Shown here one piece after another: positions 526-44,053 of a DNA stretch of 46,131 nucleotides; position 1 is the stretch's first letter; each line of letters begins with the position of its first letter. The notes beneath the pieces were generated by a model that was given only the letters and a program-made list of their open reading frames with translations, did no database searches and was not told the DNA's origin. Source of the DNA: Methanosarcinales archaeon (GTDB lineage: Archaea; Halobacteriota; Methanosarcinia; Methanosarcinales; Methanocomedenaceae); contig JACUTQ010000003.1 of NCBI GenBank assembly GCA_014859725.1, positions 1 through 46,131 on the forward strand. The letters run 5' to 3'. The position numbers and the translations under genes are program-made.

Positions 526-1845
526 ATGAGTCCGAGTGAGGAAATTCAAAAAAAAATCCAGGAGACAAATGTAAAGTTCATACGATTGCAGTTCGTGGAT
601 ATTCAGGGTATTGTCAAGAATGTAGCCATACCAATATCCCAGATAGAAAAGGCCGTCAATCAAGGCATATCCTTTGACGGCTCCTCTATAGAAGGATTTG
701 TCAGAATTGAAGAATCCGATATGGTACTAAAACCCAATATCAACACTTTCCAGTTACTTCCATGGCGTAAGAATGGCAGTGTTGCCAGAATGGTCTGTGA
801 TGTTTATAAACCGGACGGAACACCTTTCGAAGGTGACCCCAGGTTTGTGTTAAGGCGCGCCATAGCAGAAGCGGCATCCATGGGATTTGAAATGAATACC
901 GGACCCGAACTGGAATTCTTCCTTTTCGAGAAAAAAGACGGTCGCCCCACCACCACTCCCCACGATTCAGCCGGATATTTTGACTTCGGTCCTGTGGACC
1001 TGGCTGAAGATATCAGGCGGGAAATCGTGATTGCTTTGGAAGGCATGGGATTTGAGATAGAAGCCTCCCACCATGAAGTAGCCTCAGGCCAGCATGAGAT
1101 CGATTTCAAATACGGTGATTCGCTTACTACTGCCGATAATGTTGTCACATTCAAATATGTAACCAGGACCATTGCTAATAATATGGGACTGCATGCAACC
1201 TTTATGCCAAAGCCCCTGTTTGGTGAGAACGGTAGCGGTATGCATACCAACATCTCACTATTCAAGGAAGGTGCAAATGCTTTTTATGACCCTGATAATG
1301 AATACGGGATCAGCGACACATTGAAATATTTCATTGGTGGAGTACTTAAACATATCAAAGCAATCACTGCTATTTCCAATCCCACAGTCAATTCGTATAA
1401 GAGATTGGTTCCGGGTTATGAAGCCCCTGTATATATTTCATGGTCGGGTGCCAACAGGACATCACTTATCAGAATACCGGCTGCCCGTGGATCAAGTACT
1501 AGGACAGAGCTGCGCAGTCCGGATCCCTCATGCAATCCTTATTTGACCTTTGCTGTATTACTTATGGCAGGACTTGAAGGTATCAAAAATAAGATAGACC
1601 CTGGAGAGCCGGCAAATGAAAATATCTTTGAAATGACACCCGAGGGTCGCCTGGAACGGGGCATAGATTATCTTCCAATCAATCTGAGGGATGCGCTGGA
1701 TGAACTGGAAAAGGATGAATTTATTAAAGATGCCCTGGGACCACATGTATTTAAGGACTTCATGAGGATGGGCAGGGCCGAATGGGATGCTTATAGGATT
1801 CAGGTACACGACTGGGAGATCCAGCGCTACATTAACATCATGTAA
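526..1845 (+). CDS. glnA: Glutamine synthetase, type I
   Basis: Makes glutamine from glutamate, ammonia and ATP in the cytoplasm, the entry point of ammonia assimilation. The 439-residue length fits the type I (GSI-alpha) family. Visible signatures are the N-terminal beta-grasp region, FDGSSIEGF near residue 50, the metal-binding GPELEFF near 127, and the ATP-binding NPTVNSYKRLVPG stretch with its catalytic region near 290. No Tyr-containing adenylylation motif is evident near residue 370 onward, where GEPANENIFEM is found, which agrees with a form not controlled by adenylylation. The start is fixed by AGGTGA four bases upstream. It is followed after 15 bases by nrpR, so the two are probably co-transcribed. 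Confidence 0.96.
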   Translation: MSPSEEIQKKIQETNVKFIRLQFVDIQGIVKNVAIPISQIEKAVNQGISFDGSSIEGFVRIEESDMVLKPNINTFQLLPWRKNGSVARMVCDVYKPDGTPFEGDPRFVLRRAIAEAASMGFEMNTGPELEFFLFEKKDGRPTTTPHDSAGYFDFGPVDLAEDIRREIVIALEGMGFEIEASHHEVASGQHEIDFKYGDSLTTADNVVTFKYVTRTIANNMGLHATFMPKPLFGENGSGMHTNISLFKEGANAFYDPDNEYGISDTLKYFIGGVLKHIKAITAISNPTVNSYKRLVPGYEAPVYISWSGANRTSLIRIPAARGSSTRTELRSPDPSCNPYLTFAVLLMAGLEGIKNKIDPGEPANENIFEMTPEGRLERGIDYLPINLRDALDELEKDEFIKDALGPHVFKDFMRMGRAEWDAYRIQVHDWEIQRYINIM

Positions 1846-1860
1846 GATAGGTGAATTTTC

Positions 1861-2844
1861 GTGATCTCTTCAAACACTGACCCACAGGTACAACGAAAAT
1901 TAATGGAGATCCTTAGGATCATCAATGAAAGCGATGGTCCCATAGGTGCCCGTATCATTGCTGATAAGATGAGAGAACGAGGATATCAGATAGGAGAAAG
2001 AGGGGTCAGGTACCACCTCAGGATCCTGGATGAGCGGGGACTTACCTCAAGGGAAGGTTATTCGGGCCGTATTCTTACAGAATTGGGTCTAACTGAGCTG
2101 GAAGACGGTCTGATCGGACACAGGGTTGGATTTATTACTACCAATATCGATGAACTGGTCTATAAAACTGACATTGATATAGAGACTGGTAAAGGTAATG
2201 TAATTGTTAACACTGCATTGTTAGATAAGGACTTTTTTGAGCAAGCAATCGAGATTATTGCGTCGTTATGTGACAGTCCGTACTCTATAAGTCCTTATGT
2301 TAAGATAATGGAAGAAGACAATTATGAATTCAGGGTGCCTGAAGGCATGGTTGGGATCGCCAATGTTTGCAGTATCACCATTGACGGGATACTGGCTAAA
2401 AAAGGGCTCCCTGTAAATACAAAATGCGGGGGGCTAGTCCAGGTAAGAGCAGGTATCCCAACTTCCTTTACTGATATCATAATGTATGAAGGGACTACCA
2501 TCGATCCCATGAGGATTTTCATGGCCCGTAATATGACCTCGGTATTGGAAACAATGCAAACAGGAAATGGAAAAATCTTAGCAAATGTTAGAGAAATTCC
2601 TATGTCAGCAAAAGATTATGCAATAGATATTCTGGAAAAGGCAAAAGAGATTGATATCAATGGTCTGATCAAGTTAGGAGAACCAGGGAAGTCTATTCTC
2701 AGGGCACCTATTAATCCGGGAAAGATAGGATTATCCATATATGCGGGTATCAATAGTCTGGCAGCTGTACAGGAGAGTGGAATTGATATATCTGTCCATC
2801 CAATTTCAAGTATTATGAATTATAAGGATATGAAAAAATTATAG
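1861..2844 (+). CDS. nrpR: NrpR-type nitrogen regulator (NrpRI architecture)
   Basis: Transcriptional repressor of nitrogen-assimilation genes in methanogens, relieved by 2-oxoglutarate. The 327-residue protein has an N-terminal winged-helix DNA-binding domain (about residues 10-70, with ERGVRYHLRILDERGL) followed by a single NrpR/DUF128 effector domain (about 85-320). One winged helix plus one effector domain matches NrpRI of Methanosarcina rather than the two-domain form of Methanococcus. The start is GTG, supported by AGGTGA at 1849-1854. Its placement directly behind glnA suggests that it shares the glnA promoter and may control its own expression. No ordinary NrpR operator was seen in the glnA leader. 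Confidence 0.9.
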   Translation: MISSNTDPQVQRKLMEILRIINESDGPIGARIIADKMRERGYQIGERGVRYHLRILDERGLTSREGYSGRILTELGLTELEDGLIGHRVGFITTNIDELVYKTDIDIETGKGNVIVNTALLDKDFFEQAIEIIASLCDSPYSISPYVKIMEEDNYEFRVPEGMVGIANVCSITIDGILAKKGLPVNTKCGGLVQVRAGIPTSFTDIIMYEGTTIDPMRIFMARNMTSVLETMQTGNGKILANVREIPMSAKDYAIDILEKAKEIDINGLIKLGEPGKSILRAPINPGKIGLSIYAGINSLAAVQESGIDISVHPISSIMNYKDMKKL

Positions 2845-32949: not shown

Positions 32950-33125
32950 GGTGCACCTTTCCTGGGGTACCTTATTCCTAATACACGTTAAATATCCTTT
33001 TGTTCTTGAATCTTAATAAAGCAGAAAAATAACATAGCTATTCTGCTTTTAGTTCCCATACTGCCAAACGTATCAAGATATGGATAACATTTGCTGGGGA
33101 GGGTTTATGATCGTTGGGTGAAATA

Positions 33126-35771
33126 ATGGAAAAAAGGCACATGGAGAAAATACAATCAAGAATGATAAGTAGCGGTGTTCCTTCCCTGGATGAGGTAATA
33201 CAGGGTTTCAGGCTGGGTGATAATATAGTCTGGCAGGTTGACGACCTGGATGACTATTCCTTTTATGCTGACAGGTTCATTCACCAGGGAATCAGGGACG
33301 GTTATCAATGCGTTTATATCAGTTTTGCTCCCCATAACCCGGTGCTCAAACCAAGGGAATATCTGGATCTAATAGAGGTTGACCCGGGCAAGGGGTTTGA
33401 TTTCTTCAGCAGTGAAGTGCACAGGATAATAGAGAAATACGGCAAACAGGTTTTTTATGTCTTTGACAACCTGTCCTCCCTGGTCGTTGAATGGGCCACA
33501 GATGAACTTCTTGCCAACTTTTTTAAAGTCACCTGTCCTTACATGTTCGAACTTGATACGATTGCGTTTTTTGCCCTGACAAGGGGCAAGCACAGTCATT
33601 CTGCGGTTGCCAGGATACGGGATACAACTCAGATACTGATCGATGTGTACCGTGTGGACTCCAGAATTTACTTGCATCCTTTGAAAGTCTACGACCGTTA
33701 TTCTCCACAGATGTTTTTGCCCCATGTTATTTCCAATGGAAAGCTGGTGCCTGTATTCAATAGTGGGGATGCTGCAGCAGTTTCCACCAGCCATCGTAAG
33801 AAGGTCCTCCAGAGTACCAGTACCATTGCTCCATGGGACAGCGTGTATAAAAAACTAACACAGTACTGGGAAACCGGTATGGTGTCACAATCCACAGAAA
33901 CAATAGCCCTCAAACAGGAACTTTCACGGATGATCATAGGGAATCATCCCCTTTTCAATAAACTTGCTGACAATTATTTGACCCTCGAAGACCTTTTGAA
34001 TATTAGAGACCGCATGATCGGGTCTGGCAGGATTGGGGGGAAAGCCGCGGGCATGTTGATTGCCAGAAGCATTCTGCTTAAAGACGGTGAAAACCGCGAT
34101 TTTTCAGGAATTCTGGAGGCACATGACTCATTCTATATCGGATCAGACGTATTTTTCACTTTTCTGGTGGATAACGACCTTTTTCGTCTGAGGCTGCAGT
34201 TATCAGAGAACTCCAGGCTTACGAGGGAAATGTTCAAAGAGGTGGAAAATCGTTTCCTTAACGGAAAATTTCCGGAAGAGATTACAGAACAGTTTCGCAA
34301 CCTGATAGACTATTTTGGACAGGCACCCATAATTGTGAGGTCCAGCAGTTTACTGGAGGACAGTTTTGGCAATGCGTTTGCAGGCAAATACCGGAGCGAA
34401 TTCTGTACCAACCAGGGCAACCCTGATGAAAGACTTGAAGAATTTATAGGCGCCATTAAGCTTGTATATGCAAGTGCATTAAATCCAGACGCCTTTTCAT
34501 ACAGAAGGGTCCACGGTCTCGAAGATACCGATGAAAAAATGGCAATTCTTGTACAGCGTGTATCTGGTATACCATATAAGCACTATTTCTTTCCGACCCT
34601 TGCCGGTGTGACATTTTCAAAAAATCTTTTCGCCTGGACTCCCCGTATAGACCCAGAGAAGGGAATGATCAGACTGGTATTCGGTCTGGGTACCCGTGCA
34701 GTGGACAGGGTTGGCAGGGATTATCCCAGAATGATAGCAATCAGTCATCCGGAACTCAGACCCGAGATAGGCATGGAAATTACAAAATATTCCCAGTGGG
34801 AGGTCGATCTGCTTGACCTTAAGGATAATGAGTTCAGGACACTGCCTGTTTCTGAACTGAACACTGATGGTGACTACCCCAATCTTAAATTATTTATGTC
34901 CTTATACAAGGACGGTTATCTTTATGACAAGCATACCGGACGTATAGACGGGGTATCGGGCAATCTTATTCTAACTTTCAACAACCTCATAAGAAAGACC
35001 GATTTTGTAGAGAACATAGGAGAAATGTTGAAAATAATCGAAAAGGGTTATGACTACCCGGTGGATATGGAATTTACAGCATTTGTGGATTCAAATAACA
35101 GGACGAGAATCAACGTATTACAATGTCGTACCATGAAGATACCAGGTATAACCGGTCCCGTTGTCATACCGGCTGATATACCTCAGAAAAATATCTTATT
35201 CAGGTCCAGCAAGATCATTAATGGGGGAGTGATTAGTGATATTCGGTACATAGTCTACATAGACCCGAGAGTGTATGCAGGGATTGAAGAACTGCATGTG
35301 AAGAAATCAGTGGGGCGTGTGGTTGGCAGGATCAATGAACGACTTCGTCTGGATGGGGAAGCATATATTTTAATGGGACCCGGGAGGTGGGGCAGCAATA
35401 ATATTGACCTTGGTGTAAACATAACCTATTCAGATATAGACAATACTGCCGTTCTTGTTGAAATTGCCAGGGGGGGAGGCGGCCATACACCTGAAGTATC
35501 CTATGGTACACATTTCTTCCAGGATCTGATGGAAGGCCATATCATCTACATGCCTGTGTATCCTGATACACCTGAATCAGAGTTCAATGAGGAATTTTTC
35601 GAAGTATCAAAAAATATACTGGCCGAACTGTTGCCTGATGACAAGATGTTTTGCAGTTTTATCAAACTGATAGATGTTCAATCCTCAGAATCTGTTGCAC
35701 ACGCTGCAGTCGTGGCCGATCCCCAGAGCCAAAGCTCTCTCTGTTATCTTATGTCCGCTTCCTCGCCCTGA
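33126..35771 (+). CDS. Fusion of a degenerate RecA/KaiC-like domain with a PEP-synthase-like ATP-binding domain
   Basis: An 881-residue protein. The N-terminal ~220 residues resemble KaiC/RAD55-type domains (SGVPSLDEVIQGFRLGDNIVW, then YVFDNLSSLVVEWATDE), but the Walker A lysine loop is missing, since LGDNIVWQVDDLDDYS takes its place. A domain like the ATP-binding part of PEP synthase/PPDK (about 285-560) follows, with RIGGKAAGM and IIVRSSSLLEDSFGNAFAGKY. The C-terminal part has GPGRWGSNNIDLG near 760 and GGGGHTPEVSYGTHFF near 790. No phosphohistidine domain or PEP-binding barrel was recognised. GGGTGA before ATG 33126 fixes the start. Related large proteins occur in other anaerobes; the function is unknown. 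Confidence 0.75.
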   Translation: MEKRHMEKIQSRMISSGVPSLDEVIQGFRLGDNIVWQVDDLDDYSFYADRFIHQGIRDGYQCVYISFAPHNPVLKPREYLDLIEVDPGKGFDFFSSEVHRIIEKYGKQVFYVFDNLSSLVVEWATDELLANFFKVTCPYMFELDTIAFFALTRGKHSHSAVARIRDTTQILIDVYRVDSRIYLHPLKVYDRYSPQMFLPHVISNGKLVPVFNSGDAAAVSTSHRKKVLQSTSTIAPWDSVYKKLTQYWETGMVSQSTETIALKQELSRMIIGNHPLFNKLADNYLTLEDLLNIRDRMIGSGRIGGKAAGMLIARSILLKDGENRDFSGILEAHDSFYIGSDVFFTFLVDNDLFRLRLQLSENSRLTREMFKEVENRFLNGKFPEEITEQFRNLIDYFGQAPIIVRSSSLLEDSFGNAFAGKYRSEFCTNQGNPDERLEEFIGAIKLVYASALNPDAFSYRRVHGLEDTDEKMAILVQRVSGIPYKHYFFPTLAGVTFSKNLFAWTPRIDPEKGMIRLVFGLGTRAVDRVGRDYPRMIAISHPELRPEIGMEITKYSQWEVDLLDLKDNEFRTLPVSELNTDGDYPNLKLFMSLYKDGYLYDKHTGRIDGVSGNLILTFNNLIRKTDFVENIGEMLKIIEKGYDYPVDMEFTAFVDSNNRTRINVLQCRTMKIPGITGPVVIPADIPQKNILFRSSKIINGGVISDIRYIVYIDPRVYAGIEELHVKKSVGRVVGRINERLRLDGEAYILMGPGRWGSNNIDLGVNITYSDIDNTAVLVEIARGGGGHTPEVSYGTHFFQDLMEGHIIYMPVYPDTPESEFNEEFFEVSKNILAELLPDDKMFCSFIKLIDVQSSESVAHAAVVADPQSQSSLCYLMSASSP

Positions 35772-35860: not shown

Positions 35861-36020
35861 GGTAATAGGTTGCCTCTGGATAATTTTTCACGATTTTTAG
35901 TAGAAAGCTTTTAATAAGAAATAAGGAAACGGCAAGTCCATACCTATTATATTTGTTTTGAAAAATAGTTATACTTTTATAGTATTTAGTAAGTAAGTGT
36001 GTGAAATTATCAGGAGGAAG
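35861..36020 (+). promoter_or_regulatory. gdhA leader with a conserved motif and predicted stem
   Basis: GGTAATAGGTTGCCT at 35861-35875 can pair with two later segments. TAATAGG (35863-35869) pairs with CCTATTA (35943-35949), and TTGCC (35870-35874) pairs with GGCAA (35931-35935). Together they make 12 base pairs with a 7-base bulge on the 3' side. A nearly identical first motif (14 of 15 bases) and the GGCAAGYCCA second motif recur at a like spacing before the nuoE gene at 39220-39296. A later dyad, ATACT/AGTAT at 35971-35985, and AGGAGG complete the leader. It may be a regulatory RNA or a pair of protein sites; the transcript start is not known. Confidence 0.5.
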
Positions 36021-36026
36021 AAAATT

Positions 36027-37271
36027 ATGGAGAATAATCCGTTTGAGATATCGCAGCGGCAGTTGGATGAGTGTGCAAGGATTCTCGAGTTAGAACCCAG
36101 TGTACAGGCAGTCCTTCGAGTACCGATGCGTGAACTGCACATGTCATTACACGTACGTATGGATGACGGCAAGGTCCGTGTATTTCCAGCCTACAGGGTT
36201 CAATATAATGATGCCAGAGGCCCAACAAAAGGTGGAATTCGATTCCATCCTGATGAGACCATTGACACTGTGAGAGCTCTTGCTGCCTGGATGACATGGA
36301 AGTGTGCACTGCTTGATCTGCCTCTTGGCGGAGGGAAAGGGGGAGTGATCTGTAATCCCAAGGAGATGTCTGATGCTGAACTGGAACGCTTAAGCCGGGC
36401 CTATATTCGGGGTTTATCCCAGTTTATCGGTCCGGATAAGGATATCCCTGCACCTGATGTCTATACAAATCCGTTAATCATGGCGGCCATGATGGATGAG
36501 TATTCAAAAATTCAGGGTAAGAATGTATTCGGTGTTATTACCGGTAAACCGCTATGTGTGGGTGGCAGCTGCGGGCGGCAGGATGCAACAGCCCGTGGCG
36601 GCTGGTATACTATTAGAGAAGCTTCCGATGAAATTGGACTGGACATTCAAAATGCCACCGTTGCCATCCAGGGCTATGGGAATGCAGGATATTATGCAGC
36701 ATCCCTTGGTAAATCCCTGTTTGGGTGCAAAATAGTGGCTGTCAGCGATAGCAAAGGTGGAATATTCAACAAGGAAGGACTTATTCCGGATGCAGTGTAT
36801 GAGCATAAAACCAAAACCGGTTCTGTAATCAATTTCCCGGATTCTGAACCCATTACTAATGAAGAACTCCTGGAGTTGGATGTTGATATACTTATTCCGG
36901 CAGCGCTGGAAAATATCATCACAGATAAGAATGCTCAGAACATCAAAGCCAAGATCGTCGCTGAGCTGGCTAACGGTCCCACCACGCCGGAAGCAGATGA
37001 CATCCTGTTTGAAAATGGTGTTCATCTGATACCTGATTTCCTCTGCAACGCCGGTGGAGTGACAGTATCCTACTTTGAGATGGTACAGAACCTGTATATG
37101 TACTACTGGGATGAGGATGAGGTTTACAGGCGTTTGGATAAGAAAATATCTGATTCATACCATTCCACATTGCATGCTTCCAAAAAATACAGCATTAATA
37201 TGCGTAAGGCTGCATATACGGTCGCTGTGGAACGTGTGGTTGAAGCAATGGAACATCGCTGTTGGGTTTAA
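36027..37271 (+). CDS. gdhA: Glutamate dehydrogenase, NAD(P)-dependent
   Basis: Interconverts glutamate and 2-oxoglutarate plus ammonia with NAD(P)H. The 414-residue, hexameric-type enzyme has the substrate-binding motif RVFPAYRVQYNDARGPTKGGIRFHP (about 50-75). The catalytic lysine loop is LPLGGGKGGVICNP near 97, and the coenzyme fold has VAIQGYGNAGYYAA near 211. DKDIPAPDVYTNP is also conserved. AGGAGG precedes the ATG at 36027. The gene faces a paralogous glutamate-synthase-like gene across a terminator and opens a nitrogen-assimilation island. Confidence 0.94.
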   Translation: MENNPFEISQRQLDECARILELEPSVQAVLRVPMRELHMSLHVRMDDGKVRVFPAYRVQYNDARGPTKGGIRFHPDETIDTVRALAAWMTWKCALLDLPLGGGKGGVICNPKEMSDAELERLSRAYIRGLSQFIGPDKDIPAPDVYTNPLIMAAMMDEYSKIQGKNVFGVITGKPLCVGGSCGRQDATARGGWYTIREASDEIGLDIQNATVAIQGYGNAGYYAASLGKSLFGCKIVAVSDSKGGIFNKEGLIPDAVYEHKTKTGSVINFPDSEPITNEELLELDVDILIPAALENIITDKNAQNIKAKIVAELANGPTTPEADDILFENGVHLIPDFLCNAGGVTVSYFEMVQNLYMYYWDEDEVYRRLDKKISDSYHSTLHASKKYSINMRKAAYTVAVERVVEAMEHRCWV

Positions 37272-37351: not shown

Positions 37352-38959
37352 TTATGCCAGGATAGTCTCTGTTTGGTAGAGGATATCTTCCGCTTCTTGT
37401 CTGTAGGCATCCATCACATATGGTATACCTGATATTCTGGTAGCCTCTTCAGTAAGACTCATGAGGTCGTTTCTGGATATTGTGGACAAAGAGAAATTCC
37501 TGCTTCCTGCCATCAATTGTTGCAATCCTGTCCTGGTCTTCTGGCAGTAACTGTATATTCCAATAGCGCCCAGCGGGATGTCCTTGACATCACTGCCGTA
37601 CTTATCAAGTAGTTCCTCGTAGTGTACAAAGATTTCCTCTGGTCTGCGCCCGAATTCTGACACAGTCTTTGGCAGGTCATCTTCCTCGATCCATTTCGCA
37701 ATGTTCTTCCCCACCATACCAGGGATCATAAGTCCACGACCCATGCATACTGCTTTCACATCGGGGGCGCCCATTGCCAGAGCTTTGAATATCCCGTCCT
37801 CGCTTGAGAATCCTCCGGCCATTGCCAGATCAGGTACTCTCTTACCCCGAGCTTTTAGCTTCTCTGCAAACTCATGTACAAGGCTCTGGAGATAGAACGT
37901 GGGTATGCCCCATTCATTCATCATGGGCCAGGGGCTCATACCTGTGCCGCCTGGTGCACCATCAAAGGTGACAAGATCCAGTTTTGCTTCGGTCCCGTAT
38001 GCCAGCGCCATGGCAGTTTCCACCATTGAATATGCGCCAGTCTTAAGTGTAATCCGCTTGAATCCCAGATCACGCAGCCGGTCGATCTCTGCCATAAAGT
38101 CTTCTCTGGTAACGAATCCCAGGCGGGAATGTCGTTCAAATTCCCTTATAGCTCCGATCTTATAGGCTTCTTTGATATCGTGTGCTTCAGGATCAGGTGT
38201 AACTAAGTATCCCCTTGCCTTCAATTCTCTGGCTCTGTCAATATCTTTAACCTTGATCTCGCCGCCTATGCATTTTGCACCCTGGCCCCATTTGAGCTCA
38301 ATGGTATCCAGATCGTGTTTACTGCTTACATATTCGGCTACACCCAGTCTGGTGTCTTCTACATTCATCTGGACCAGGATCTCGCCATAACCCTCATGGA
38401 ATTTTCTGTAGGTATTGATCCTTCTATCCATCTCAGGGGATTTGTTGATCTTGCCCTGGGAATTTAGTTCCAGTTCAGGATCAACGCCGCAGACGTTCTC
38501 TCCGCAGACCAGGGTAATGCCCGAGATGGCCGCACCTATGGCAAAATGTTCCCAGTTCTTTCGTGCAATATCTGTGGAGCCCAGGGCACCCGTGAATATG
38601 GGCAGTTTCATCTTGACCTTATGGTTCCAACCGTATTCGGTCTCGGTATCGACATTCGGAAATATGGCAGTGTCGGGCCCCGGCATCACATCGATCGGGA
38701 GTCCGTACGCACCCACTGCATATCCCTGTATGTTCAGGTGGGAATAGTCTACCGGGTAATTTTTATCGGCTCCTGCCGTACTTTCGCCAAAGGGTCCGGG
38801 GTATAATACTTCCCTGCCCCTGAATGTGGCTTTAAATATCTCGCAGTTGCCTCTGCACCCGTCTACGCACCGGGTACAGATTCCGGAAACCGGAGCCACA
38901 CTCCTAGAGCGGTTAGAGGTTCCGGTAGCTTCATTTGCATTTGGTATTCTAAGATTCAC
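37352..38959 (-). CDS. FMN-binding glutamate-synthase-like protein (paralogue 1)
   Basis: A 535-residue protein of the FMN-binding glutamate synthase (GltB central domain) family. The N-terminus carries four cysteines at residues 28, 31, 35 and 39 (CX2CX3CX3C) that could hold an iron-sulfur cluster. The FMN barrel shows ELKWGQGAKCIGGEIK, LVTFDGAPGGTGMSPWPMMNEWG and CMGRGLMIPG. It lacks the N-terminal glutaminase and the GXGXG domain of bacterial GltB, and no such genes or gltD lie nearby. It runs divergently from the nuoEFG-like genes, with a regulatory region of 417 bases between. The product may be a glutamate synthase subunit or a different flavin-dependent oxidoreductase. Confidence 0.8.
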   Translation of the reverse strand: MNLRIPNANEATGTSNRSRSVAPVSGICTRCVDGCRGNCEIFKATFRGREVLYPGPFGESTAGADKNYPVDYSHLNIQGYAVGAYGLPIDVMPGPDTAIFPNVDTETEYGWNHKVKMKLPIFTGALGSTDIARKNWEHFAIGAAISGITLVCGENVCGVDPELELNSQGKINKSPEMDRRINTYRKFHEGYGEILVQMNVEDTRLGVAEYVSSKHDLDTIELKWGQGAKCIGGEIKVKDIDRARELKARGYLVTPDPEAHDIKEAYKIGAIREFERHSRLGFVTREDFMAEIDRLRDLGFKRITLKTGAYSMVETAMALAYGTEAKLDLVTFDGAPGGTGMSPWPMMNEWGIPTFYLQSLVHEFAEKLKARGKRVPDLAMAGGFSSEDGIFKALAMGAPDVKAVCMGRGLMIPGMVGKNIAKWIEEDDLPKTVSEFGRRPEEIFVHYEELLDKYGSDVKDIPLGAIGIYSYCQKTRTGLQQLMAGSRNFSLSTISRNDLMSLTEEATRISGIPYVMDAYRQEAEDILYQTETILA

Positions 38960-39376
38960 GATTTAGCCTCTTGGTTTTTAGGCAGCTAGTGATGGCTACA
39001 GTAACACTTTTCCTGAAATGTAACCCCCTGATAAAAAAGGTATGATTTCTGGAGTTTTCCAGGTATTAGATGTGTTGGCAAAATGAATCTGGAGGGGTTA
39101 TATTTCAGGTAAGTATTCTGTCGACCGCCAATAGGCAACCGGTAGATTACTATCTAACTATACTATAAATAATTATCCCTAACTTGGGTGTAAATGAATA
39201 AATTTTTTATGTGATTGTGGGTAAAAGGTTGCCTTTAATAGGGTTAACTTTAAATATAATATAGTAAGAAAGTGGCGTATGGCGTTGGCAAGCCCACAAA
39301 AAAATTGTTTAACCTATGTTAAAAAATTTTGAATTTGAATAAATCTGGAGAATTATATGAAAACAGGAGGTATTAG
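38960..39376. promoter_or_regulatory. Divergent regulatory region between glutamate-synthase-like and nuoE-like genes
   Basis: This stretch holds a nearly perfect 16-base inverted repeat, CCTGAAATGTAACCCC (39012-39027) and GGGGTTATATTTCAGG (39094-39109), with a nested CTGGA/TCCAG hairpin at 39049-39062. A GGTTGCC core occurs on the minus strand at 39133-39139, and GGTAAAAGGTTGCCT on the plus strand at 39220-39234, followed by GGCAAGCCCA (39287-39296). An AT-rich TATA-like core (39160-39178) could serve both directions. A TTTAAC/GTTAAA hairpin (39308-39323) and AGGAGG (39365-39370) precede nuoE. The region is dense in structure and probably holds shared regulatory sites. Confidence 0.55.
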
Positions 39377-39832
39377 ATGACGGATAGCGAATCCAAACTT
39401 TGTTCAATAGTAGACAAATATAATGCTGAACAAGGTTCGCTGATCTCCATATTACAGGATATCCAGGCAGAATATCAGTTTTTGCCCCAGGAAGCCCTGA
39501 AATATGTGGCAAACAGATTGAATATACCTGGAGTTCAGGTATATGGAGCAGCTACCTTTTTTAAGGCATTCAGCTTGAAACCCAAAGGCAGGCAGCAGAT
39601 ACATGTGTGTATGGGTACGGCCTGCCACGTGAGGGGGTCACAGATCGTGCTGGAAGAACTTGAACGCGAACTGGGTATTAATGCCGGAGATACAACATCG
39701 GACCGAGAATATACGCTTGAAAAAGTCAACTGCGTGGGAGCATGTGCTCTGGGTCCGGTTGTAGTTGAGAACGAGACATATCACGGACAGATGACCCCTA
39801 TCAAGATCGAAGGTCTGTTCAACGGTAAATAG
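39377..39832 (+). CDS. NuoE / HydC-like [2Fe-2S] subunit
   Basis: A 151-residue thioredoxin-fold protein with the four cysteines that bind a [2Fe-2S] cluster. They are two in VCMGTACHVRGS (about residues 76 and 81) and two in NCVGACALGPVV (about 117 and 121). It is homologous to NuoE of complex I and HydC/HndA of NAD-linked hydrogenases. AGGAGG stands six bases before the ATG. It is the first gene of a run with NuoF-like and NuoG-like genes and a glutamate-synthase-like gene, so it likely carries electrons within that complex. No hydrogenase subunit is near. Confidence 0.88.
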   Translation: MTDSESKLCSIVDKYNAEQGSLISILQDIQAEYQFLPQEALKYVANRLNIPGVQVYGAATFFKAFSLKPKGRQQIHVCMGTACHVRGSQIVLEELERELGINAGDTTSDREYTLEKVNCVGACALGPVVVENETYHGQMTPIKIEGLFNGK

Positions 39833-39850
39833 GTCTGAAGGTGAATTAAT

Positions 39851-41701
39851 TTGAAGCTAACTTCAATTGAGGAACTTGAGGATCTGCATCAGCAAATACT
39901 GGCAGGTAAAGATCCTGATAAGCAGTGCATTGCAGTATGCGGTGGACCTGGATGTCTGGCAAAACAATGCACTGAGGTCAGGGATGCTTTTGAAAAAGAG
40001 ATTCTGGACAAAGGTCTAACTGACAAAGTGGATCTAAGGACTACCGGATGTCACGGATATTGTGAAGCAGGACCTATTGCCCTGATATTCCCGGATGAGA
40101 TATTCTATCAGAAATTGACAGTCCAGGATGTCGCTGAAATAATTGATACTACGATAACCAGTGGTAAAGTGGTTGACAGACTGCTCTTTAAAGATGCCCT
40201 GACCGGTCAGTCAATTATAAATGAAAAAGATATCCCGTTCTATAAAAAGCAAACACAGCATCTCCTGGGTAATAACAAAAAGATCGATCCCCACAGCCTG
40301 GAAGACTATCTTGCTAATGGTGGATACTCAGCTCTTACTAAAATGCTGGGCAAAATGGGACCACTGGACGTACTTAATGAGATCAAACGATCAGGTCTTC
40401 GGGGTAGAGGTGGCGGTGGTTTCTCTACAGGACGAAAATGGGAGTCAACCCGAAATGCTAAAGAAGAGATCAAATATGTCATATGCAACGCTGATGAAGG
40501 TGATCCCGGTGCTTTTATGGACCGCAGTATCCTTGAGGGCAACCCCCACAGCGTACTTGAGGGCATGATTATTGCAGCGTATGCCATTGGATCCAATGAA
40601 GGGTATATCTATGTGAGGAATGAATACCCGCTGGCACTGCAGAATATTATTATAGCTATTGAACAGGCTAAACAATACGGAATACTGGGTTCCAACATTT
40701 TGAATTCAGGATTCAGTTTTGATGTTAATGTAAACCGCGGTGGCGGCGCCTTCATATGCGGTGAGTCAACAGCCCTTATGGCCTCACTGGAAGGTAAGCC
40801 AGGTGAACCCAGAGCCAAGTATATCCACACCTCTGATATGGGACTGTGGGATCGCCCTTCCAATTTGAACAATGTGGAAACCCTGGCCAATGTGCCCCTG
40901 ATCATAAACAAAGGGGCAGACTGGTATTCAGGTATAGGCACCGATTCCAGTAAGGGTACCAAAGTGTTCAGCCTAGTAGGCAAGATCAACAATACCGGAC
41001 TGGTGGAAGTGCCAATGGGCAGGACCCTGCGTGAGATCATCTATGATATCGGCGGCGGCATCCCCAATGGTAAGTCCTTCAAGGCGGTACAGACCGGGGG
41101 GCCCAGTGGTGGTTGTATCCCTGAAAGCCTGATCGATCTGCCAGTTGATTACGACCGGTTGACAGAAGTCGGTTCAATGATGGGATCAGGCGGTATGATC
41201 GTGATGGACGAGGATACCTGCATGGTGGACCTGGCCAAATATTTCGTCAACTTCCTGGAAGAAGAATCATGCGGTAAATGTGTACCCTGCAGGGAAGGAC
41301 TGCTGCGTCTGGGTGAGCTGCTCACAGACATTACCGAAGGAAAGGGCAGGATGGAAGACCTGGAACTTATCGAGGATCTCTCAGAGGTAATGAGGGATGC
41401 AGCACTGTGCGGTCTGGGCAAGACAGCACCTAATCCTGTTATGTCCACATTGAAATATTTCAGGGACGAGTACGAAGCTCATATCAGGGACGGTGTGTGT
41501 CAGGCAGGCGTATGCGAGGAACTGATCACATACAAGATCGATCCTGAAAAGTGCAATGGCTGCGGTCTATGCCTGAAGCATTGTCCGTCAGATGCCATAT
41601 CAGGAGAAAAGAAACAGCCCCATGTGCTGGATACTGAAAAATGCATCAAATGCGACATGTGCTATGAAGTATGCAGGTTTGATGCTGTGGGAAAGAAGTG
41701 A
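39851..41701 (+). CDS. NuoF / HydB-like flavoprotein with extra ferredoxin domains
   Basis: A 616-residue NADH-binding, FMN-containing subunit. In order it has: a thioredoxin-like [2Fe-2S] domain (Cys30, Cys35, Cys67 and Cys71), the FMN/NAD domain (GLRGRGGGGFSTGRKW at 182-197, CNADEGDPGAF at 212-222), an SLBB-type region, a [4Fe-4S] site (ESCGKCVPCREG with a later C near 519), and a C-terminal 2x[4Fe-4S] ferredoxin (CNGCGLCLKHCP and CIKCDMCYEVC). This domain order matches HydB/HndC of electron-bifurcating hydrogenases more closely than complex I NuoF. It may read NADH to drive a partner enzyme. The probable partner, from context, is the glutamate-synthase-like protein. Confidence 0.9.
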   Translation: MKLTSIEELEDLHQQILAGKDPDKQCIAVCGGPGCLAKQCTEVRDAFEKEILDKGLTDKVDLRTTGCHGYCEAGPIALIFPDEIFYQKLTVQDVAEIIDTTITSGKVVDRLLFKDALTGQSIINEKDIPFYKKQTQHLLGNNKKIDPHSLEDYLANGGYSALTKMLGKMGPLDVLNEIKRSGLRGRGGGGFSTGRKWESTRNAKEEIKYVICNADEGDPGAFMDRSILEGNPHSVLEGMIIAAYAIGSNEGYIYVRNEYPLALQNIIIAIEQAKQYGILGSNILNSGFSFDVNVNRGGGAFICGESTALMASLEGKPGEPRAKYIHTSDMGLWDRPSNLNNVETLANVPLIINKGADWYSGIGTDSSKGTKVFSLVGKINNTGLVEVPMGRTLREIIYDIGGGIPNGKSFKAVQTGGPSGGCIPESLIDLPVDYDRLTEVGSMMGSGGMIVMDEDTCMVDLAKYFVNFLEEESCGKCVPCREGLLRLGELLTDITEGKGRMEDLELIEDLSEVMRDAALCGLGKTAPNPVMSTLKYFRDEYEAHIRDGVCQAGVCEELITYKIDPEKCNGCGLCLKHCPSDAISGEKKQPHVLDTEKCIKCDMCYEVCRFDAVGKK

Positions 41702-41705
41702 TATC

Positions 41706-42407
41706 ATGTCAGAAAAGAGAGGCCAGATGGTCAAGTTCATGTTAAACGGTGCAGAAGTGCAGGCTGATCCCAACTGGAACCTGCTGGAAGCAGTACGGTT
41801 CTATGGAATAGACATCCCCACATTGTGCTATAATGAAGGGCTTACTCCCTATGGTTCATGCAGGCTCTGTGTGGTGGAGGTCGGCGGCGGGGACAGGACC
41901 AAACTGGTCACCTCATGCATGCATCCTGTGGAAGAAGGGCTGGAGGTACGCACCCACAGCAAACGGGTGATAAAGACCAGGAAAATGATAATGGAACTGC
42001 TGGTTGCCCGCTGTCCCAGCTCAAAGACGCTGCAGGATATGGCTTCCAGGCTTGAATTACAGGAGGTCAGGTTCACACCCTTAAACGACGACTGCATACT
42101 GTGCGGCCTGTGCGTGCGCATGTGCGAGGAACAGATGGTGGCCAGAGCCATAGGGTTTGCCGGCAGGGGTGTTGACAGATACATCACTACGCCTTTTGAT
42201 ATGAACTCAGAGGAATGCCGCAAATGTGGTGCATGTATGCATATCTGTCCGGTCTGTGAACTTAGGTGCCAGGGACCCCAGGCAGAGACCGTACTGTGCA
42301 GCGGGTGTCTCAACACCGAACCGGTATGCGCCAATACCTATGATGATGCCATGTGTTTCATGGTTCCGTGCCTGTCATGTGTGAAAAGACCAGAGGATGT
42401 GAAATGA
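41706..42407 (+). CDS. NuoG / HydA-N-terminal-like iron-sulfur protein
   Basis: A 233-residue protein that resembles the N-terminal part of NuoG/HydA. It has a plant-type [2Fe-2S] domain (CYNEGLTPYGSCRLC near 39-53, with SCMHP near 69) and a 2x[4Fe-4S] part (CILCGLCVRMC near 122, CRKCGACMHIC near 166). The usual histidine-bearing HxxxCxxC site between them is absent, since ELLVARCPSSKTL takes its place. A C-terminal tail has about eight more cysteines (CELRC, VLCSGC, PVCANTYDDAMC and PCLSC) without a hydrogenase domain. The start at 41706 lies just past the preceding stop. The electron exit is probably here. Confidence 0.82.
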   Translation: MSEKRGQMVKFMLNGAEVQADPNWNLLEAVRFYGIDIPTLCYNEGLTPYGSCRLCVVEVGGGDRTKLVTSCMHPVEEGLEVRTHSKRVIKTRKMIMELLVARCPSSKTLQDMASRLELQEVRFTPLNDDCILCGLCVRMCEEQMVARAIGFAGRGVDRYITTPFDMNSEECRKCGACMHICPVCELRCQGPQAETVLCSGCLNTEPVCANTYDDAMCFMVPCLSCVKRPEDVK

Positions 42408-42472
42408 GAATTGAATCAAATTATTGAATTTAAATAAATTGAAGAAAGTTATAAAATATTTGGAGGATCAAA

Positions 42473-44053
42473 ATGTCATTGACAAGAATAAATGCGACAG
42501 CGGCTACGCTGACAAAGAACAGAACAGAGGGATCGGTAAGTCCCTTAAGTGGCATGTGCGTTACCTGTGTAGACGGGTGTATCGGCATGTGCGAGATCGG
42601 TAAGTCTGCATACCGGGGCTCGGAGGTAATTTACCCCCAGCCCTACGGGATCACTACTTCGGCTTCTGAAAAGGACTATCCAATAGATCTGAGCCATTTC
42701 ACCATCCTGGGGACCGCAGTAGGGGCTCATGGAATTGAGGCAAACAGCGAAGTTGCCATTTTCCCGAACGTGAACCTTGAGGTGGCAATCGGCAAGGATA
42801 AGAACATTAAACTGAGACTGCCGTTCATCATTCCAGGTCTTGGCAGCACAGCAGTTGCCAGCAATAACTGGGACGGACTTGCCATTGGTTCTGCCATGGC
42901 AGGCATACCTCTGACAATTGGCGAAAATGTGTGCGGTATGGACCCTGACTCTGTCATAGAGAATGGAAGGGTGGTGCATTCACCTGACCTTGCCAGCAGG
43001 GTCAAACTGTACAAGGACTGGCAGCGGGACGGATACGGTGACATCATTCTTCAGGCCAATGTGGAGGATACGGGCCTGGGCGTCCAGGAGTATGGTCTGG
43101 AAAAACTGGGTGTGGAGACCGTTGAACTGAAATGGGGCCAGGGAGCCAAGGATATTGGCGGCGAGGTAAAGCTCAATACCCTGGATCGGGCACAGCTGCT
43201 GCGCAGACGTGGGTATGTTGTATTGCCTGATCCAATGGATCCTGACGTTATTGCTGCTTTCAATACTGGCAGTTTCCATGAGTTCGAGAGGCACAGCCGG
43301 ATCGGCATGGTGACAGAGGAAGGATTCATGAGCCGTGTAAAGGAACTGAGAGATGCCGGTGCCAAGCACGTGTTCCTAAAGACCGGTGCATACAGGCCGG
43401 CAGACCTGGCCAGGGCAGTGAAGTATGCCAGCAAGGCTGAACTTGACCTGCTTACCGTGGACGGTGCCGGCGGCGGTACAGGTATGAGTCCCTGGAGAAT
43501 GATGAACGAATGGGGTATGCCCCAGGTTGAGATCTACTCACTGCTGTACCAGTATCTGAAGAAGCTGGACGATCGCGGCGAGTATGTGCCCGACGTAGCT
43601 GTAGCAGGCGGTATTACCCTTGAGGACCAGGTCGTGAAGGCACTGGCTCTGGGAGCACCGTACTTCAAGCTAGTCGGTATGGCCAGGGCACCCCTGGCAG
43701 CGGCCATGGTTGGCAAGACCATTGGCAGTAAGATCAATGAGGGACGCGTACCTGTGTATATCAGCAGGTTCGGCAAATCTGTTGATGAGATATTCATATC
43801 AGCTCCTGAACTGAAGAAGATGTATAATGGCAGATATGACGGGATCCCGCCAGGTGCTATAGGTGTGTACACGTACTTCCAGAGGCTTGCTCAGGGTATG
43901 CGTCAGATGATGACAGGCAACAGGAAGTTCGCTCTGCAATATATTGAAAGAGACGATATTGCAGCCCTTACCAGAGAAGCGGCTGAGGTTTCCGGCATCT
44001 CCCATGTGATGGATGTGGACAAGGACGAAGTGGAAACGATCCTGAATTCCTGA
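42473..44053 (+). CDS. FMN-binding glutamate-synthase-like protein (paralogue 2)
   Basis: A 526-residue paralogue of the minus-strand gene at 37352-38959. It has the same four cysteines (29, 32, 36 and 40) and the same FMN-barrel landmarks (ELKWGQGAKDIGGEVK, TVDGAGGGTGMSPWRMMNEWG). It differs at the substrate loop (VGMARAPLAA in place of VCMGRGLMIPG). It follows the NuoG-like gene by 65 bases with GGAGG ahead of the ATG, so it may share that transcript, although a TTATAAAATA stretch at about 42449 could be a promoter. No glutaminase domain is present. Together with NuoEFG-like proteins it may form an NADH-linked glutamate synthase or an unrelated flavin oxidoreductase. Confidence 0.8.
   Translation: MSLTRINATAATLTKNRTEGSVSPLSGMCVTCVDGCIGMCEIGKSAYRGSEVIYPQPYGITTSASEKDYPIDLSHFTILGTAVGAHGIEANSEVAIFPNVNLEVAIGKDKNIKLRLPFIIPGLGSTAVASNNWDGLAIGSAMAGIPLTIGENVCGMDPDSVIENGRVVHSPDLASRVKLYKDWQRDGYGDIILQANVEDTGLGVQEYGLEKLGVETVELKWGQGAKDIGGEVKLNTLDRAQLLRRRGYVVLPDPMDPDVIAAFNTGSFHEFERHSRIGMVTEEGFMSRVKELRDAGAKHVFLKTGAYRPADLARAVKYASKAELDLLTVDGAGGGTGMSPWRMMNEWGMPQVEIYSLLYQYLKKLDDRGEYVPDVAVAGGITLEDQVVKALALGAPYFKLVGMARAPLAAAMVGKTIGSKINEGRVPVYISRFGKSVDEIFISAPELKKMYNGRYDGIPPGAIGVYTYFQRLAQGMRQMMTGNRKFALQYIERDDIAALTREAAEVSGISHVMDVDKDEVETILNS

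Follow-up and report, generated by a model that had tools for sequence, protein, structure and literature searches.

The upstream regions of gdhA and nuoE studied here probably contain tandem predicted operators for a dimeric nitrogen regulator, set within a nitrogen-assimilation promoter that is common to both genes. The window, i.e., the whole stretch of DNA that was analysed, comprises 46,131 nt of contig JACUTQ010000003.1 and belongs to a genome of 2.4 Mb. The initial annotation had proposed a leader element shared by gdhA and nuoE and tied to glutamate or nitrogen genes, acting either as a cis-regulatory RNA or as two protein sites. The shared element and its tie to these genes are upheld, and the option of protein sites fits the data best.

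Gene content of the window

The genes relevant to the analysis are listed below.

526–1845, forward strand: glnA, at the left end of the window
About 1903–2844, forward strand: nrpR, the candidate regulator gene, with a winged helix (PF08461) and an NRD domain (PF01995), directly behind glnA (glnA and nrpR together, 526–2844)
33114–35771: gene upstream of gdhA, with a PPDK_N domain
36012–36017, forward strand: ribosome-binding site AGGAGG of gdhA, assigned from the sequence
36027–37271, forward strand: gdhA, glutamate dehydrogenase (PF00208, PF02812)
37352–38959, reverse strand: gltB1, glutamate synthase domain protein, divergent from nuoE
39377–39832, forward strand: nuoE-like gene (PF01257), the first gene of nuoE-nuoF-Fe/S protein-gltB2
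39377–44053: nuoE, nuoF, a small Fe-S protein and gltB2, taken together

Besides gdhA, the genome encodes at least three further ELFV-type dehydrogenases (contigs C6, C13 and C22), with 37–50% identity. The comparisons below were made with family relatives, all belonging to genera other than that of the window.

Motifs shared by the gdhA and nuoE leaders

The motif strings, base pairing, matches and spacings given in the initial annotation are all present in the sequence. In the gdhA leader, TAATAGG (35863–35869) and TTGCC (35870–35874) can pair with CCTATTA (35943–35949) and GGCAA (35931–35935), respectively. Motif 1 of gdhA, GGTAATAGGTTGCCT (35861–35875), is identical to motif 1 of nuoE, GGTAAAAGGTTGCCT (39220–39234), in 14 of 15 positions, while motif 2, represented by GGCAAGTCCA in gdhA (from 35931) and GGCAAGCCCA in nuoE (from 39287), is identical in 9 of 10. 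The spacing between motifs 1 and 2 is 70 in gdhA and 67 in nuoE.

The chance levels of these features vary widely. A 14/15 match between the leaders was obtained in 13 of 400 shuffles, and a 9/10 match of ten bases at a similar spacing in 472 of 2000. The occurrence of GGCAA in both leaders at a matching spacing was reproduced in 1 of 2000 shuffles, this 5-mer having been picked after the fact. The pattern GGTTGCCTN{40,70}GGCAAG has exactly two matches in the 2.4 Mb genome, which are the gdhA and nuoE pairs, and its reversed control has none; in 60 relatives, the exact two-motif pattern gave a count of a few dozen scattered matches outside the window. The motifs common to both leaders are real and probably not due to chance. 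The stem as such is unremarkable: when the gdhA leader was dinucleotide-shuffled, a Watson–Crick helix of 12 bp or more with one bulge appeared in 27 of 200 cases.

Dyad sites A, B and C

Comparison with the relatives resolves the shared motifs into a series of 14-bp sites positioned around a promoter block, designated P2. Site definitions and pattern choices were refined after the data had been seen. The features in the window are as follows.

35861–35874, forward strand: site A of gdhA, 14-bp dyad GGTAATAGGTTGCC, corresponding to motif 1
35931–35944, forward strand: site B of gdhA, GGCAAGTCCATACC, enclosing motif 2
35960–36004, forward strand: P2 of gdhA, with a TATA-like box at about 35975–35982, then AGTAAGTAAGTG; homologous to the nuoE promoter
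39220–39233, forward strand: B-like site of nuoE, GGTAAAAGGTTGCC, corresponding to motif 1 of nuoE
39236–39278, forward strand: P2 of nuoE, with TATA-like TTTAAATA at 39249–39256
39281–39294, forward strand: C-like site of nuoE, GGCGTTGGCAAGCC, containing the start of motif 2 of nuoE

In the relatives, the region upstream of P2 contains an element GTAAATTGCC (A), followed 70 bp downstream by a 14-bp GG-N10-CC site (B), mostly of the form GGCTA...TTCC. A second GG-N10-CC site (C), which reads GGCTGACTATATCC in most relatives, lies 60–61 bp after B, just past the TATA box. Site B of the window gdhA aligns with sites of the GGCTA-N5-TTCC type in all ten relatives compared, and its GG and CC occupy the same columns in the window gdhA, the gdhA of relative G004 and nine relatives. 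The A–B spacing of 70 bp is likewise common to the window gdhA and the relatives. Site A is more variable. In most relatives it is GTAAATTGCC with no GG-N10-CC dyad, whereas in G004 it is a perfect palindrome, GGTAATGGGTTACC, and GGTAATGGGTTACC and GGTTAGTTTTTTCC are 61 bp apart. The dyad half-sites are mostly imperfect.

The two nuoE sites (39220 and 39281) are 61 bp apart, which agrees with the 60–61 bp between B and C in the relatives. The nuoE pair is best fitted as B and C, an assignment made from spacing and geometry only; the B-like site lies 7 bp nearer to the TATA box than B does in the relatives. The spacing of about 70 in both leaders, previously read as the mark of a single element, is thus not retained as such: the gdhA motifs lie at A and B, those of nuoE most plausibly at B and C. 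As far as alignment and geometry indicate, the motif pairs of gdhA and nuoE represent different members of a single series of sites.

The 46 kb window contains six copies of the consensus GGYA-N6-TRCC, of which only those at 35861, 35931 and 39220 are intergenic. The related pattern GGTAA-N4-TTRCC was not enriched over its reversed control in 17 family genomes, and most of the matches inspected lie inside coding genes. A longer pattern, GGYA-N6-TRCC-TNTT, searched in the window's own genome with one mismatch, was dropped as too unspecific.

Promoter block P2

The best-conserved promoter block begins downstream of both gdhA motifs. It is of the type AAAAATAGTTATA-TTTAAATA followed by GTCAGTAAGTGGCTGA and is gap-free through the TATA box and the next element in the gdhA and nuoE upstream regions of the window and the family. 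When the gdhA leader served as DNA query against 186 genomes of the order, P2 was recovered blind, upstream of gdhA in G011 and of nuoE in G009, and the gdhA leader of G004 was also found. Outside these gdhA and nuoE loci, none of the family genomes contains another exact copy of the GGTCAGTAARTGGYTGA block.

A TATA-to-start distance of 19–22 nt was reported for Methanolobus (PMC5378194). Applied to P2, this distance places the inferred start of the gdhA transcript near 36003, downstream of both stem arms. As the predicted start is downstream of both gdhA sites, RNA made from P2 would not contain the stem. Transcription from a point downstream of the motifs is therefore predicted for gdhA from this block, while weaker TATA-like sequences, which are also found upstream of motif 1, might give a longer transcript.

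The homology of the two P2 blocks, together with the 14/15 match reached by 3% of shuffles, could be taken to mean that the likeness of the motifs has no function and is a remnant of common promoter ancestry combined with chance in AT-rich DNA. We consider this unlikely. The distance from motif 1 to the TATA box is about 107 bp in gdhA vs. 25 bp in nuoE, so one co-inherited block fails to explain motif 1, and the relatives show no variation in the GG and CC of site B.

Gene order in related genomes

In four relatives (G003, G010, G001 and G011), gdhA is located behind the nuoE promoter. The order in G003 and G010 is gltB1, the shared promoter, a nuoE stump (residues 7–45 or 13–44 recognisable) and gdhA, and G010 retains a gltB2 stump (residues 446–490) after gdhA. 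In G009 and G006, the full nuoE-to-gltB2 operon follows the shared promoter. Judging from these arrangements, gdhA and nuoE are interchangeable behind one promoter, which supports their joint control.

The loci of G010 (L320, 3354–6059) and G003 (L321, 5221–7283) have gdhA between the nuoE promoter with the degenerate nuoE stump and, in G010, the gltB2 stump. It appears that, in these two genomes, glutamate dehydrogenase has taken the place of the glutamate synthase operon downstream of that operon's promoter. The locus of G004 (L323, 2605–2703) has the last 33 residues of gltB1 alone recognisable beside gdhA, and nuoE is absent; here gltB1 seems to have been deleted, and the promoter of gdhA has retained both A and B.

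RNA structure

The cis-regulatory RNA option assumes a riboswitch- or attenuator-like leader of about 150 nt, transcribed from an upstream promoter and acting via the bulged stem. In a related methanogen, long 5′ UTRs are frequent and so are multiple starts (PMC5378194), and the weak TATA-like sequences upstream of motif 1 would offer such a promoter, although boxes of this kind are easily found in AT-rich DNA. The rarity in shuffles of GGCAA at the matching spacing and the conservation of both TTRCC and GGYWA also speak for an RNA.

However, neither the two leaders nor the isolated elements folded more stably than shuffled sequence (z-scores from −0.64 to 0.13, four folds), and the bulged stem is absent from the predicted full-leader folds. 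An Rfam scan of the leaders up to E = 5 gave no relevant family. When nine homologous upstream regions were aligned, pairing was found in 38% of cells for the outer helix (TAATAGG/CCTATTA) and in 82% for the inner helix (TTRCC/GGYWA). The inner helix has a single double change, which is in G004, and one of its pairs is broken in eight of the nine regions; RNAalifold gave −2.4 kcal/mol. The compensatory changes by which the initial annotation proposed to judge the stem are limited to that one double change; the homologue alignment does not support a conserved stem, even if conservation of the inner motif pair is clear. With P2 predicted to start downstream of the gdhA stem as well, a leader RNA is very improbable, and this half of the original proposal is not supported. 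The RNA-like stem is a by-product of two copies of one near-palindromic sequence: two copies of one dyad are always mutually complementary, which explains the stem.

Glutamine and 2-oxoglutarate riboswitches are nitrogen-related leader RNAs. They resemble the present case in being placed before nitrogen genes, but the leaders described here have no Rfam match, no fold signal and no convincing covariation.

Candidate regulator

The nitrogen repressor known from this group is NrpR. Genes with an NRD domain were found in all 17 family genomes. The window's own genome has three; one with a winged helix is located in the window, and a second, likewise with a winged helix, lies ahead of nifH on contig C54. 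The NrpR operator of Methanococcus maripaludis is GGAAN6TTCC and is located before nif, glnA and glnK-amtB (PMC2723118); two operators per promoter are known for nif, according to the title of Lie 2005, cited in PMC2723118. The sites at 35861, 35931 and 39220, all GGYA-N6-TRCC, have the NrpR-type geometry of a 14-bp dyad with a 6-bp spacer. Like the M. maripaludis operators, they are 14-bp GG-N10-CC dyads with a 6-bp core before nitrogen-assimilation genes. Unlike those operators, the present site series has half-sites GGYA/TRCC or GGCTA/TTCC instead of GGAA/TTCC, the B sites of the relatives carrying TTCC on one side only, and the dyads are directed to gdhA and the glutamate synthase operon. 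No GGYA-N6-TRCC is found upstream of nifH, amtB or glnA in the window's own genome. The NrpR operator sequence of M. mazei was not found in the open literature searched.

The nifH and amtB promoters of the family contain a TATA box followed by CTACAGTARATTRCCGTT (own contigs C54, locus L203, and C76, locus L202; also L182, L191, L176 and others). This is likely a separate nitrogen-control element of nifH and amtB. It resembles the gdhA and nuoE sites in belonging to nitrogen genes and in having a TTRCC core similar to site A of the relatives, GTAAATTGCC, but it has no GG-N10-CC dyad, and a weight matrix built on the nifH and amtB promoters does not single out the gdhA and nuoE sites.

In the gltB1 promoter (39129–39190, reverse strand), GGTTGCCT is found at about 39133 after a TATA-like box, and GGYTRCCTATT is kept there in the relatives.

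NrpR may be tentatively named as the likeliest regulator of the candidate sites. It is unproven in this role, since the half-sites differ and nifH, amtB and glnA lack the dyad. The same lack of dyads, and the presence of the P2/C block once per relative, solely at this promoter, would agree with protein sites for a non-NrpR regulator (e.g., of the Lrp type) specific to glutamate synthesis genes. Such a regulator is a realistic but somewhat less probable possibility: no protein of this kind was identified here, and the group already has its nitrogen repressor in NrpR.

Proposed mechanism and significance

Under the preferred reading, a dimeric nitrogen regulator acts on tandem operators, and the regions upstream of gdhA and nuoE are two versions of one nitrogen-assimilation promoter. 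Comparison shows the conserved P2 in both, together with 14-bp GG-N10-CC sites at fixed spacing: A and B in gdhA, both upstream of P2, and in nuoE a B-like site upstream of P2 and a C-like site near the predicted start. Each site would bind a dimer of a winged-helix regulator. When nitrogen is sufficient, two bound dimers may block or bend the promoter; when nitrogen is scarce and 2-oxoglutarate is high, the dimers would be released.

It is conceivable, though less likely than not as a whole, that a lineage-specific module with tandem 14-bp dyads co-regulates both competing glutamate routes (glutamate dehydrogenase and glutamate synthase), that it does so via a regulator whose operator code is new and that gdhA took over the promoter of the glutamate synthase operon. 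A palindromic protein site present in two copies can mimic a long RNA stem. The relatives provide an apparent example of glutamate dehydrogenase having displaced the glutamate synthase operon while the promoter stayed the same, and the dyads offer a testable candidate operator through which nitrogen may control glutamate synthesis in this lineage of uncultured archaea.
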